Below, one piece after another: positions 5,559 to 10,273 of a stretch of DNA of 63,391 nucleotides (its first letter is position 1; every line of letters begins with the position of its first letter). This stretch comes from Methanolobus sp. (GTDB taxonomy: Archaea; Halobacteriota; Methanosarcinia; Methanosarcinales; Methanosarcinaceae), in assembly GCA_030154025.1 (NCBI GenBank), contig JASKKT010000006.1, forward strand, positions 1 to 63,391. Reading direction: 5' to 3'. Under the pieces are notes generated by a model that was not told the origin of the DNA, made no database searches, and worked only from the letters and a program-made list of their open reading frames with translations. A program made the position numbers and the translations under genes.

Positions 5559-6017
5559 TTATCTGGTGATCATCATCTCTGCAGTCTCAGGCTTGTACTT
5601 CCAGTCAGCAGGAAGGACCTTTGTGGACTGGTAGTACTTGACCAGCCTTCTGATCTTGGACTCAGTGTTCTGGAGGGAGCGCTTGTTGTGTACGTCCTTG
5701 TGGTTGGACACAATGTGTTTCCTGATTCCTATTGCCTTTACTATGAGGTTGTACAGGTCTTCCGGAACGGTTGACTGCTCTCCTTTCTCCTTGATGATCT
5801 GGCCGATCTTCTTGCTGGTCACGATCTTGACATCGGGTACGCCGTACTTGTCCCTGAGTGTCATTCCGATAACGCTTGTGCTCATTCCCTGCTTCCAGAG
5901 GTCCATTATGACCTTAGTGATCTCTTCCTCGTTCATTGTGGACCAGGCTGGCGGTTCAGTGCGAAGCGGTCTTGTGGATCCGGACTGTCCTTTCTTCCGG
6001 GTGTGCATCTTTGCCAT
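5559..6017 (-). CDS. rps15: 30S ribosomal protein S15 (uS15)
   Basis: 152 residues beginning [17 protein letters not shown], the conserved archaeal/eukaryotic S15 start, followed by the helical domain with GVPDVK near residue 64 and the SDS-like basic region [19 protein letters not shown]. Archaeal uS15 is longer than the bacterial protein because of the N-terminal extension seen here. It binds the central domain of 16S rRNA. It is monocistronic, with its own TATA box (6055-6064), the Shine-Dalgarno CAGGAGG eight bases before ATG, and a hairpin terminator downstream. Confidence 0.97.
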
Positions 6018-6064: not shown

Positions 6065-6199
6065 ATATGATTTGTTCGTATGGTTACCGCAGTCCTCAGG
6101 CATGTCGAACGAACAGGAGAACCTGATTGTACGGATGTCAATGTAATGGGCGAAGTGTTCATAAAAAAGCATTATCAAATATATATGTTGTGATTGCGT

Positions 6200-7075
6200 T
6201 CACTGCCACATATAGAGGATTATGTCCGCTCCTCCTCTGTTCGCCTTGCTGTATATGGAACGCATCTGCCTTTCATGCATCTCTAGCTGCGTTTCGGTAT
6301 CCGTGGAGTTAAGGATCCCCGATACCGTTGCATCGATCTCCGGCTGCATCTCTGCCTGCATGCATGATGAGATCCTTGCACTGTTGACCTGCATGAGGGT
6401 ACTGTTGATGTGATCTATCAGGTTCATGTCGATATTGCCATCCTCCGTCGGAACCGTTGTATTCAGGCCGAACATCCTGTTGGCGGTGTGGTCGATGCTG
6501 TAGAGTACCAGCTGGTATTCGGGATTTGCCAACTCTGTGTTTCCCGGGCCTGCTATGAGAGACAGCTGTTCACTGTTGAGGCTTATCCCGGTCGAACTGA
6601 GCGACAGAAGGTAATCCGCAGGAAATATGACCGAAGTGATGGTCTTTGCAGCCGACAGGGATACCCTTTCAATGCTTTTATTGTATTCTTCATGCAGGGT
6701 GGCTGAGGGATCGGGCGCGTCAAGAGCATCAAGGAAGGCACTTTTGTTCATCGATCCAAGGAACTCTTCCTGGGAAGGTGAGGATACAGTGGGCAGGGAG
6801 ATCCTGGACGACTGCCGGAACGCATCTGCGGGAGCAATAGCCCCTATCTCGATATCACTGCCTGTATCATAAACGCTCACAGGGTACCAGTGAGCCTCAA
6901 ACCTGTACTGGTAACGGCCACCCATGCGTGCATCAAGATAGCTCCGGATCGCATCCTCTGTCATCGGCCGATGCATCTTTGCCATGGGATTCAGGTATTC
7001 CTTACTTCCGTTAACATTCAATGCCATTCCCAGCACAAGATCCTCGGCCACAAGGTCTGCAAAAGTACGGTGCTT
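6200..7075 (-). pseudogene. C-terminal part of a frameshifted pilin-like membrane protein
   Basis: This frame encodes about 290 residues that continue the protein begun at 7395. At the A4 run 7074-7077 the upstream frame (reading NKST) gives way to a frame reading KHRTFADLVAEDLVLGMA; one extra A would join the two into a smooth protein. An independent start inside it (ATG at 7051) would leave a secreted-looking domain without its membrane anchor, which argues against a separate gene. The body is Ser/Thr/Asn rich with no catalytic motif I recognise and ends RGGADIILYMWQ. Either a sequencing error in a homopolymer or a real inactivating indel; the protein downstream shows no other damage. It is the last gene of the hisS-pilin-like series. 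Confidence 0.6.
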
Positions 7076-7395
7076 TTGTTGTCTTCCATAAAGTGTCTCT
7101 TCTGCATCCTGAGCATGGAGTCCTGGGGCAGGGAGATGTTAAGGCCGACGAGTTCCCCTGGTTTGTAAGTGTATCCAACTTCATCAATCCTGCTGTTCAG
7201 CATGGAACTGAGGACCAGGGTATCGGTATCCTGCAGGGATACATATCCTGCGGACCTGTACTGGTACTCGGCCATGACCGCAGGCATGAGTATCACGGCA
7301 GATATGGATATCAGCAGCAGGAATATCAGGGAATCCATATTTGAAGAGAATGCCTTTTCGTTGCCTGAGAGAGTTTCCTTGTTCTTCATTTCCAC
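7018..7395 (-). pseudogene. N-terminal part of the frameshifted pilin-like membrane protein
   Basis: Residues 1-105 look genuine. A short polar lead with the motif GNEKA (residues 11-15) is followed by a hydrophobic segment SLIFLLLISISAVILMPAVM (about 22-41) and an extracellular-type region. The last 20 codons (after NKST) read out of frame and end in a Trp-rich tail, which is the frameshift product. The GNEKA-plus-hydrophobic pattern matches the three proteins encoded just upstream (DEKA, DERA, DERA). It may be a class III (prepilin-type) signal with cleavage after Ala, but that is an inference. It lies 10 nt downstream of its neighbour. Confidence 0.6.
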
Positions 7396-7405
7396 GACAG
7401 CTCCC

Positions 7406-7933
7406 TTATATCCATCTATTCTTTCTCAGTCTGACAGTGACTGTACCCGGAACACACAGGGCATTGTTGCCAAGTTCGATAACAACCGGTACTGAGGCTG
7501 CAATGATATCATTGTCAGAAGAAGGTGTTTCGTGCCTGTCGATCATCCACATGTGACTTCCGTCATCCGTGCGGATCTCCACCGTGAAGTCAAGGTTTGC
7601 AGAGAACCTCCGGAAGAACTCGGTGTGCATTTCCCTGTCAGCAGCAGGTATGGAAATTGCGTCCAGGGCATCAGCCGATATCAGGTCCTGCCGGCTTCCC
7701 TGAATAGGGGGATAGGCGGCAATGTCACTGGCGATGAGGGCTGCCTGCCTATAGTTCTCCAGAGCAAGGGAGTTATCATCATAGGCAAAGTATGTCTTTG
7801 AGATCAATGCGGCAAAAATGACAAAACCTATCACAACCATGGCAGTCGATATGATATCGTTATGCGGCTCCATGAAAGCTTTTTCATCACTGGTAAACGA
7901 GGATGTACTCAAGTTCTTTGACCCCAGTCCCAT
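7406..7933 (-). CDS. Pilin-like membrane-anchored protein with DEKA motif
   Basis: 175 residues. The polar N-terminus carries SDEKA at residues 15-19, followed by IISTAMVVIGFVIFAALISK as the single membrane segment (about 27-46), then an outside domain of about 125 residues that ends with a basic C-terminus. No enzyme motif is visible. The ATG at 7933 overlaps the upstream gene by 47 nt; a TTG at 7912 would shorten the overlap and still include the motif, so the start is uncertain. Size, single N-terminal helix and the Ala before it suit an archaeal type IV pilin-like protein. Function unknown; it is probably made together with its neighbours. Confidence 0.7.
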   Translation of the reverse strand: MGLGSKNLSTSSFTSDEKAFMEPHNDIISTAMVVIGFVIFAALISKTYFAYDDNSLALENYRQAALIASDIAAYPPIQGSRQDLISADALDAISIPAADREMHTEFFRRFSANLDFTVEIRTDDGSHMWMIDRHETPSSDNDIIAASVPVVIELGNNALCVPGTVTVRLRKNRWI

Positions 7934-8555
7934 TTAAATTGTATGTGTATATCAAGGTCTTTTCAATGTGAACTGGGATACTTATATTTAAATTTTTTTC
8001 TTTTGTTCCGAGGGTTGCCAGGAACTCCATAAGATTTTCAGGCCCAATCGGTGCCGGAATCGGCTGACCCTGGGTGCCAGCCGCTGAGAAAGCATCCATG
8101 AGTTCCTTACGTACCTCTGTTTCCGAAAATGGGAGCGTCTTGTATGTGAGTGGCTTTACCGATGTGTACCTTCTTCCTTTCTCATCGAAGGATGCAGTCA
8201 CATATTCCCCTGAAACGGAGACATTGAGCCCGGAACCAAAGCGACCGTGATACTCATACGGGTCAAAAGAGTAGTTCTTACCGCCTGCTCCGTAGCTGTC
8301 CCGGCCTGCACTGTCAATAGCAGACCGGAAGTCCTGGGCTATGACCTCAAGTTGCCTATCCTGGTTCATGCGCCCGGCATCCACAGCCAGGTGACAGAGG
8401 GCTGCCAGGATGATAACGCCTGCAAGAATGAGGGCGACCTTCGAAAGCAGCAGATCGACCCAGGCCCTTTCGTCCGTGCAAATATGTGTGGTGTGGTCTC
8501 GCGGGATAACAGGTCTTCGAGAAGGAACCTTTTCAGCAACCGGCTTAACTTTCAT
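7887..8555 (-). CDS. Pilin-like membrane-anchored protein with DERA motif (222 aa)
   Basis: A basic/proline-rich N-terminus of about 27 residues leads to TDERA (27-31), then a membrane helix VALILAGVIILAALCHLAV and an extracytoplasmic domain rich in Tyr, Gly, Ser and Asn with several N-x-S/T sites (NYS, NVS, NIS, NGT), which are potential N-glycosylation sites in a methanogen. It overlaps the upstream gene by 11 nt and the downstream one by 47 nt, consistent with translational coupling. No known domain recognised. The longer cytoplasmic lead is unlike the short lead of classical prepilins, so a plain signal anchor remains possible. Confidence 0.7.
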   Translation of the reverse strand: MKVKPVAEKVPSRRPVIPRDHTTHICTDERAWVDLLLSKVALILAGVIILAALCHLAVDAGRMNQDRQLEVIAQDFRSAIDSAGRDSYGAGGKNYSFDPYEYHGRFGSGLNVSVSGEYVTASFDEKGRRYTSVKPLTYKTLPFSETEVRKELMDAFSAAGTQGQPIPAPIGPENLMEFLATLGTKEKNLNISIPVHIEKTLIYTYNLNGTGVKELEYILVYQ

Positions 8556-9030
8556 ACACCTTCACGAAAATCCTATTGTCAGACCTCCTTTTAACACTTT
8601 CCAGTGTTATCCTGTGCTTACCCGGGCCAAGTATGGAAGTACCATTCAGGTCGCCGTTTGAGTAAAATGCAGTGGACTCCCCTACAATATGCCTGCTGCC
8701 GGCTACGATATAATGATTGCGTGCGTCCTCAGGCCATCTGTCCTCGCTGCCTGGAAGCCCTCCGAGCACTATAGTCATCTTTGCAGGGACATCGATGTCC
8801 AGGGTAACCCTGCTGCCTTCTCCCTGTGCCGACATCATCCTGGCATGGGAATCCACCTGCGAGAGAACGATACCTGCATCCCGGATGCGCTCATTCTCCA
8901 GCATGTCGGAAACGGCTGTAGCTGACAGCAGGACAATGGCAAGGAGGACTATGGATGCGGCTGTGAAGCGCATGGGCAGGGCATCAGCAGCCCTTTCGTC
9001 GGTAAAGATATCCATGCGCTGCAGAGCCAT
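8545..9030 (-). CDS. Pilin-like membrane-anchored protein with DERA motif (161 aa)
   Basis: It starts MALQRMDIFTDERA, then a hydrophobic segment FTAASIVLLAIVLLSATAV (about 22-40), then an outside domain of about 120 residues with beta-rich character and no catalytic motif. It is the first of the four DE[KR]A proteins and lies 10 nt after the hisS stop on the same strand, so it may share the hisS transcript. Among the four its layout is closest to a classical type IV prepilin: a short charged leader, Arg-Ala at the putative cleavage point, then a hydrophobic helix. The assembly ATPase and prepilin peptidase expected for such a system are not in the window. Confidence 0.7.
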   Translation of the reverse strand: MALQRMDIFTDERAADALPMRFTAASIVLLAIVLLSATAVSDMLENERIRDAGIVLSQVDSHARMMSAQGEGSRVTLDIDVPAKMTIVLGGLPGSEDRWPEDARNHYIVAGSRHIVGESTAFYSNGDLNGTSILGPGKHRITLESVKRRSDNRIFVKVYES

Positions 9031-9040
9031 TTCCGGGACC

Positions 9041-10273
9041 TTAGACCCTAAGCTTGCGGATGACTTCCTCGACCGTGAGGAGTTCCTGCTCCCCGCTCTG
9101 CATATCCTTGAGCATTACCTTACCTGCAGCTGCCTCTTTATCCCCTATGATGACAGCATATCCCGCTTCCAGATAGTTGGCATAGGATAACTGGGCCTTG
9201 AAATTGCGTTTCATAAGGTCTATGTGGACCGGCACGTGGGGGCGAAGCTGCATGGCGGTCTTAACGGCTTCAAGCCTTGTTGATTCCATGGCGATGATAA
9301 CCACAGGTTTTGCTTCTTCAGGCTCGATGGTGCACACTTCCATTATCCTGTCAAAGCCGAGTCCGAAGCCTGTGGAGGGAACGTCACCGCCGCCGAAGAG
9401 CTTGATGAGCTGGTAGGACCCGCCGCCGCATACCTGCTTCTGGGCTCCCAGGCCCTCTGCGTATACTTCAAAGACCATGCCGGTATAGTAGTCCAGCCCC
9501 CTGGCGATACCGAAGTCTATGGTGTACTCGACCCTGTAGGTGTCCAGCAGCGTGAGAAGTTCCTGGTAGGCAGCAAGCTCAGGTATGTCGCCGACTAGCA
9601 TCCGTGCCTTTTCGATGGCATCATTGCCTGTGAGGTCGATAAGCTCAATCAGTTTCATACGCAGGTCGGAGGGTGCGTTCATCTCCGCAAGATAGTCTTC
9701 AAGTGCCTGGTACTCTTTCTTGTCCACCAGCCTCATGATCCTGCTCTGCTGTTCGGTCTCAAGCACGCTGAGCAGATGCCTGATAACACCCAGGTGGTTC
9801 ACATGCAGGTCTCCCCTGATCCCCACAGCCTTCAGCATCTCACTGGCAAGCGCGATTACCTCGGCATCGGCGTCAGCCTTGTCACTTCCAATAAGTTCCA
9901 CACCGAACTGCCAGAACTCCCTGAAGCGTCCCTTCTGAGGGCGCTCGTACCTGAAGCAGTTCTCGAAGTAGAACAGCTTGAGGGGTCGCTGGCGCGCCTG
10001 CATCTCATTCACATACATCCTCATGACCGGGGCGGTGAGCTCCGGGCGCAGGGTCATCTCCCTGTCCCCCTTGTCGGTGAAATTGTACAGTTCCCCGACT
10101 ATGCCCTCTCCGGATTTCATGGTGAAGAGCTCAAGGGACTCGAAGGTGGGCGTGATTATCTCCTGGAATCCCCAGTTCCTGACCACCCTGCGTAAGATGT
10201 TCTCTACATTCCTTCTGCACCTGGTATCCTCCGGGAGGAAGTCCCTGGTCCCTCTTGGTCTGCTAATTGTCAT
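9041..10273 (-). CDS. hisS: Histidyl-tRNA synthetase
   Basis: 410 residues, class II aminoacyl-tRNA synthetase. It begins [16 protein letters not shown], the conserved HisRS start. Motif 2 ([20 protein letters not shown]) is near residue 105-125, the histidine-specific signature [15 protein letters not shown] is near 260, and a C-terminal anticodon-binding domain is present (from about 320). It charges tRNA-His in the cytoplasm. The ATG at 10273 overlaps nothing; the 199-nt gap to trpB2 holds the divergent promoters. Downstream genes are pilin-like proteins with no functional link to HisRS, so any operon is probably incidental. Confidence 0.96.

Follow-up and report, generated by a model that had tools for sequence, protein, structure and literature searches.

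Four pilin-like genes beside hisS in a Methanolobus genome as probable parts of a dispersed archaeal type IV pilus-like machine

We found four consecutive genes in Methanolobus sp., here termed A to D, whose products are probably pilin-like components of a type IV pilus-like machine of the clade 4F/haloarchaeal PilB2-C2 type; in its Methanosarcinales branch, this machine appears to be dispersed over at least three loci. This reading draws on the homology of C and D, and more weakly of A, to a haloarchaeal cluster that includes its own PilB and PilC, on the common descent of the PilB ATPases, and on the co-occurrence and co-loss of the components. On these grounds, the set is best classed with a known type of machine, here in a form that is dispersed in Methanosarcinales. 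It would thereby join three scattered methanogen loci (hisS-ABCD, DUF7286 with its partner gene and an orphan PilB-PilC pair) into one testable machine, and it names likely components for a class of archaeal pili that the literature searched catalogues without an assigned role. The genes lie on the minus strand of the window, i.e., the whole stretch of 63,391 nucleotides analyzed here (contig JASKKT010000006.1), in the following arrangement, with E used below for the DUF7286 protein encoded elsewhere in the genome.

9041 to 10273, minus strand: hisS, the upstream neighbor of A-D, given as context and not as a part of the machine.
8545 to 9030, minus strand: gene A, a DUF7311-like single-pass protein of 161 aa with the motif DERA at 8989-9000; it has a profile match to haloarchaeal A.
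7887 to 8555, minus strand: gene B, a single-pass protein of 222 aa with DERA at 8463-8474; its haloarchaeal counterpart is assigned by position only.
7406 to 7933, minus strand: gene C, a DUF7285-like single-pass protein of 175 aa with DEKA at 7877-7888.
6200 to 7395, minus strand: gene D, of the DUF7284 family, with NEKA at 7351-7362 and a frame broken near 7110.
5559 to 6017, minus strand: rpsO (uS15), the downstream neighbor of A-D, likewise context and not a part of the machine.

The end of hisS and the start of A are separated by 10 bases, and A overlaps B as B overlaps C; given this spacing, hisS and A-D are probably carried on one transcript. Gene D is present in the window as two ORFs, 7395-7018 (125 aa) and 7051-6200 (283 aa), and is unsplit, at ~390-430 aa, in nearly all relatives examined. 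An Rfam search found no element.

When the window proteins alone were searched against Pfam and NCBIfam, nothing rose above the cut-offs, the sub-threshold Pfam matches being DUF7311 for A, DUF7285 for C and DUF7284 for the D fragment; homology was reached only via intact relatives, intermediate lineages and profiles. With the curated cut-off at 27 bits for each of these families (PF23993, PF23956 and PF23955, respectively), D belongs to DUF7284, as its intact ortholog in locus L039 scores 34.9 bits and the broken window copy 16 bits. C scores 14.4 bits against DUF7285 in the window, below the cut-off, and its orthologs in what we call the Methanocella-like family (a guessed identity) score 36-39 bits; C is a distant relative of DUF7285 rather than a filed member. 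A likewise stays below the cut-off, at 14.2 bits against DUF7311. Comparison of profiles with the haloarchaeal counterparts gave a probability of 98 and an E-value of 1e-14 for D, 96 and 4e-9 for C, and 57 and 1e-4 for A, the last being colinear over nearly the full length, with crossed controls at E-values of 0.5-0.7. B reached only an E-value of 0.036, not a significant match, and its counterpart is therefore assigned by position. The results for D, above the cut-off in its intact ortholog, and for C, matched to DUF7285 by profile comparison, support the description of the set as pilin-like that had been given from the letters of the DNA. In the literature searched, these DUFs are not mentioned by name.

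In the AlphaFold model of C (pLDDT 80), a helix of 51 residues begins directly behind the motif and is accompanied by a four-strand head; in that of D (pLDDT 75), made from the intact copy of a relative, the same long helix is combined with strands and a large helical domain. Neither model matches a solved structure (Foldseek with C gave no significant match and the fold search with D matched nothing in the PDB), so that a pilin fold is no more than plausible for the two modeled proteins. The inserted helical domain of the D model had prompted us to consider a GspK-like layout, which was dropped when the fold search came back empty.

In Halobacteria, the DUF7285 locus has the order coiled coil-A-PilB-PilC-B-C(DUF7285)-D(DUF7284)-E(DUF7286), in which PilB and PilC were identified by tblastn and the remaining genes by position and profile. 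The PilB-PilC pair was recovered by tblastn in eight of the 10 haloarchaeal loci, two being without it; the coiled-coil protein that precedes A is DUF7310-like, and a tubulin-family (cetZ-like) gene lies beside the cluster in five of the 10 (L152, L155, L157, L158 and L159), with L159 displaying two such genes. In the Methanocella-like family, A-D are followed directly by a giant DUF7286 gene, whose product of 984-1061 aa has an N-terminus of the D-D-x-A-R-V-P-F type, and in one genome of this family DUF7287, DUF7288 and DUF7289 and other pilin-like genes adjoin A-D-E. A tatC-like gene also lies divergently beside A-D-E in this family (L112 6653-7387, L115 6853-7575).

The sequence-only reading had drawn attention to a [DN]E[KR]A motif ahead of the membrane helix in four consecutive proteins, and all four motifs are indeed present at the positions listed above, with the first hydrophobic helix (Kyte-Doolittle window) following after 7-8 residues in each of A-D. 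The motif occurs five times in the 18,430 residues of the window ORFs, four of these being the A-D sites; its chance expectation is ~0.001 per 15-residue pre-helix segment and ~1e-12 for all four. Across 111 A-D sequences, the putative -1 site is A or G in 110, in keeping with the G/A/S expected at -1 of class III signals, and the putative -4 site is D, N or E in 105. The -2 site is K or R in 58, carries any charge in 66 and is uncharged in 45, with K or R found there in all four window proteins. Thus, the conserved part of the motif is the final A/G and, three to four positions before it, an acidic residue or Asn, and not the Lys/Arg. The archaeal prepilin rule combines G/A/S at -1 with a charged -2 residue, and the sites of Haloferax volcanii PilA include DA/VS (PMC4371748; the slash marks the cut). 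The pilins beside PilB33 and PilB86 of the same genome display NEDA/VSPV, NDKA/VSPV, NTSA/VAEV and DTSA/VSEL; as some of these carry Ser at -2, this residue seems to be tolerated there in this lineage. The examined stretches of the genome encode 25 proteins that have a helix at the N-terminus, and in nine of these the helix is preceded by [DN]..[AG]: A-D, four conventional pilins from other pil loci and the DUF7286 protein.

The D-x-x-A pattern recurs in conventional pilins encoded by this genome, and A-D thus likely carry a prepilin-peptidase site. The genome has one Peptidase_A24 gene (contig C16), which, together with the near-invariant -1 Ala/Gly of the methanogen orthologs and the similar pilins of this genome, supports the earlier suggestion of a shared prepilin-peptidase-type signal. 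The EppA route, also raised in that suggestion, found no support: EppA/DUF361 (Epd) pilins were rejected, as no protein of the genome matches the class III/DUF361 domain (PF04021, Class_IIIsignal) and Gln is never found at +1 in the A-D alignments. Loss of the motif in orthologs had been named as what would speak against the signal, and this holds in part: the conserved positions of the motif are kept in methanogens, but haloarchaeal A and B begin directly at the helix, with neither leader nor motif. These leaderless forms favor a somewhat unlikely alternative, in which A and B would stay uncleaved in the membrane as stator or alignment subunits comparable to ArlF/ArlG of the archaellum, processing would be confined to C, D and E as pilin-like subunits, and the motif of A and B would be a topology or sorting feature. 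The archaellum locus of the same genome likewise has a 143-aa ArlF-like protein (a tentative identity) that starts at the helix without the motif. However, the -1 A/G is kept in 28 of 29 methanogen A and all 28 methanogen B sequences, and the spacing and acidic residues of A and B are as in C and D, which argues against this alternative.

The order hisS-A-B-C-D-rpsO is kept in the relatives of Methanolobus, and in other Methanosarcinaceae A-D are contiguous, with hisS either adjoining or a few kb away. No hisS neighbor accompanies A-D in two further lineages of this order or in the Methanocella-like family; the order A-B-C-D itself is shared across Methanosarcinales, the Methanocella-like family and others. 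In genome G006, whose hisS is 96% identical to that of the window, hisS and rpsO are adjacent and A-D (~6197-8920 of the window) are gone, along with PilB24, the ATPase discussed below. The deletion (L248 7433-7811) is near-clean, with ~80 bases left at the site. In genome G242, only a D fragment is left and the PilB24 frame is shortened to 569 aa. Elsewhere, D of G289 (L117 5153-7527) is interrupted by a probable insertion element, an oppositely oriented ORF of 314 aa, and B of G002 (L056 7892-8746) is frame-broken. From these frames and that of D in the window, members of the set appear to have been inactivated repeatedly. Moreover, the set-negative genomes are spread over six genera; hence, the set has likely been lost several times independently. 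The frameshifted D of the window, the split D, the broken B, the D fragment and the G006 deletion would also fit a system that is decaying in the lineage and non-functional in this genome. We regard this as unlikely, as intact frames are found for A, B and C, whose sites are conserved, and for PilB24, its PilC and E, and the lone frame change in D could be an assembly error in a genome of 86 contigs.

None of the Methanosarcinales loci examined links A-D to pilB or pilC. The observation, made from the window, that no assembly ATPase is nearby is literally true but misleading, and the independent fiber deduced from it is unsupported, as the haloarchaeal and Methanocella-like clusters, the PilB tree and the co-occurrence of genes point to a likely PilB/PilC pair and a DUF7286 protein on other contigs. 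The genomic link to PilB/PilC that the sequence-only reading had proposed to look for emerged from the haloarchaeal homologs, which cluster with their own PilB-PilC and whose PilB groups with one ATPase of this genome. This is PilB24 (contig C24), the best match in the genome for all eight PilBs of the haloarchaeal loci, which has its own adjacent PilC (PilC24) and no adjoining pilin genes. A maximum-likelihood tree of PilB, made without reference 4F sequences, has a branch of 100/100 support that separates the haloarchaeal locus PilBs and all PilB24 orthologs from the archaellum ATPase and every other PilB. The N-terminus of PilB24 is rich in Cys, with 14 in the first 250 residues (7-14 in the methanogen orthologs), and four other PilBs have 0-2 in their first 200 residues. 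PilB24 is present in all 13 genomes with the set and in two of 11 without it (Fisher 4e-5, with relatedness ignored), these two being G004 and G242, which lack an intact set.

The DUF7286 protein, E, shows a similar distribution (10 of 10 set-positive genomes versus none of four set-negative ones); here, it is a protein of 1344 aa encoded on contig C37 in an intact frame. Methanosarcina acetivorans has hits to both DUF7285 and DUF7286. The Tad-type PilB49 (contig C49), used as a control, was rejected as a partner of A-D, as it is found in every genome tested (24 of 24), with or without the set. Its locus (L032 7145-12013), itself seen in 24 of 24 genomes, encodes a MinD/TadZ-like ATPase, the PilB and two TadB/TadC-like proteins, with no adjoining pilin gene. 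Service of the set by a different, promiscuous PilB-PilC pair or by several is quite improbable: the genome does have five other secretion ATPases with PilC-type partners, PilB3-C3 can substitute for PilB1-C1 in H. volcanii (PMC6491452) and G004 and G242 retain PilB24 without an intact set, but PilB24 is the one ATPase of the genome that groups with that of the homologous haloarchaeal cluster, and, of the two ATPases followed across the genomes, PilB24 tracks the set and PilB49 does not.

We accordingly return to the dispersed machine with PilB24/PilC24 as its candidate motor, for which we propose the following course. After insertion by Sec, A-D would be cleaved behind the A/G by the PibD-type peptidase of the genome (contig C16), not by an EppA-like one; the processed proteins would then be assembled by PilB24/PilC24 together with E. 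A-D might act as minor pilins or form a complex that initiates assembly or sits at the tip, and E might be located at the tip or make contact with surfaces. Most likely, A-D are minor or initiating subunits. We tentatively entertain, as a doubtful extension, that the methanosarcinal machine is a distinct one with four mutually dissimilar pilin-like proteins, a pilin-signal protein of 1,350 residues and, in A and B, cleavable leaders that are missing from the haloarchaeal forms, but perhaps with no dedicated shaft pilin; it would then build a short pseudopilus or contact organelle instead of a classical pilus.

Among known systems, subclade 4F is described as having ATPases that are often Cys-rich at the N-terminus, a haloarchaeal coiled-coil component, an FtsZ-family neighbor and a major pilin that is usually stand-alone, and as occurring in methanomicrobia (Makarova, Koonin and Albers 2016, PMC4858521). 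The set resembles it in the Cys-rich N-terminus of its ATPase, in the PilC-type partner and in the several pilin-like genes. The coiled coil and FtsZ-family neighbor are shared by the haloarchaeal loci only, neither a coiled coil nor an FtsZ/CetZ-family gene being found beside the methanosarcinal A-D. It differs from 4F in having its parts over at least three loci in Methanosarcinales and in that the parts located here do not include a dedicated major pilin of the PilA family (arCOG02981). With the cetZ2-linked pilB2/C2 regulon of Halobacteria (PMC9856176), it shares homologous C, D and E, a related PilB-PilC and, in half of the haloarchaeal loci, the cetZ-like gene, whereas that regulon is one contiguous cluster with leaderless A and B. 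As PilB2 has been assigned to clade 4C (PMC6491452), the clade label is somewhat doubtful and the exact equivalence to this regulon is presumed; the putative equivalence of PilB24 to the 4F ATPase is based on the coiled-coil, cetZ and Cys features.

Other likenesses are more distant. The PilA/PilB3-C3 adhesion pili of H. volcanii (clade 2) also feature D-x-x-A class III signals and pilins encoded apart from pilB-pilC, but they use an ATPase of another clade, and PilA has a VSPVIG-type start of the helix, which A-D do not. The Epd pili of Methanococcus, which are EppA-dependent and of the DUF361 type, are another case of minor pilins that carry class III signals in a methanogen, whereas A-D lack both the DUF361 match and Gln at +1. 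The pseudopilins of type II secretion (GspH-K) are comparable in set-up only, i.e., several distinct small single-helix subunits along with larger ones, as A-D have no match to them in sequence or fold. The present case illustrates how motor phylogeny and co-loss can link an orphan PilB-PilC pair to pilins encoded at a distance. Surface appendages are relevant to how cells of Methanosarcinales aggregate and to the contacts that they make with surfaces and partner cells.

The DUF7286 gene is always followed by one for a protein of ~200 aa with an N-terminal and often also a C-terminal helix (L145 1477-2073; also L041, L112, L113 and L146-L150). This small protein is likely a further component of the machine and would join the assembly with E. 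In the lineage of genome G025, E may be split or duplicated, as the matches to DUF7286 on contigs C40 and C5 of this genome are spread over several separate short frames of 235-311 aa.
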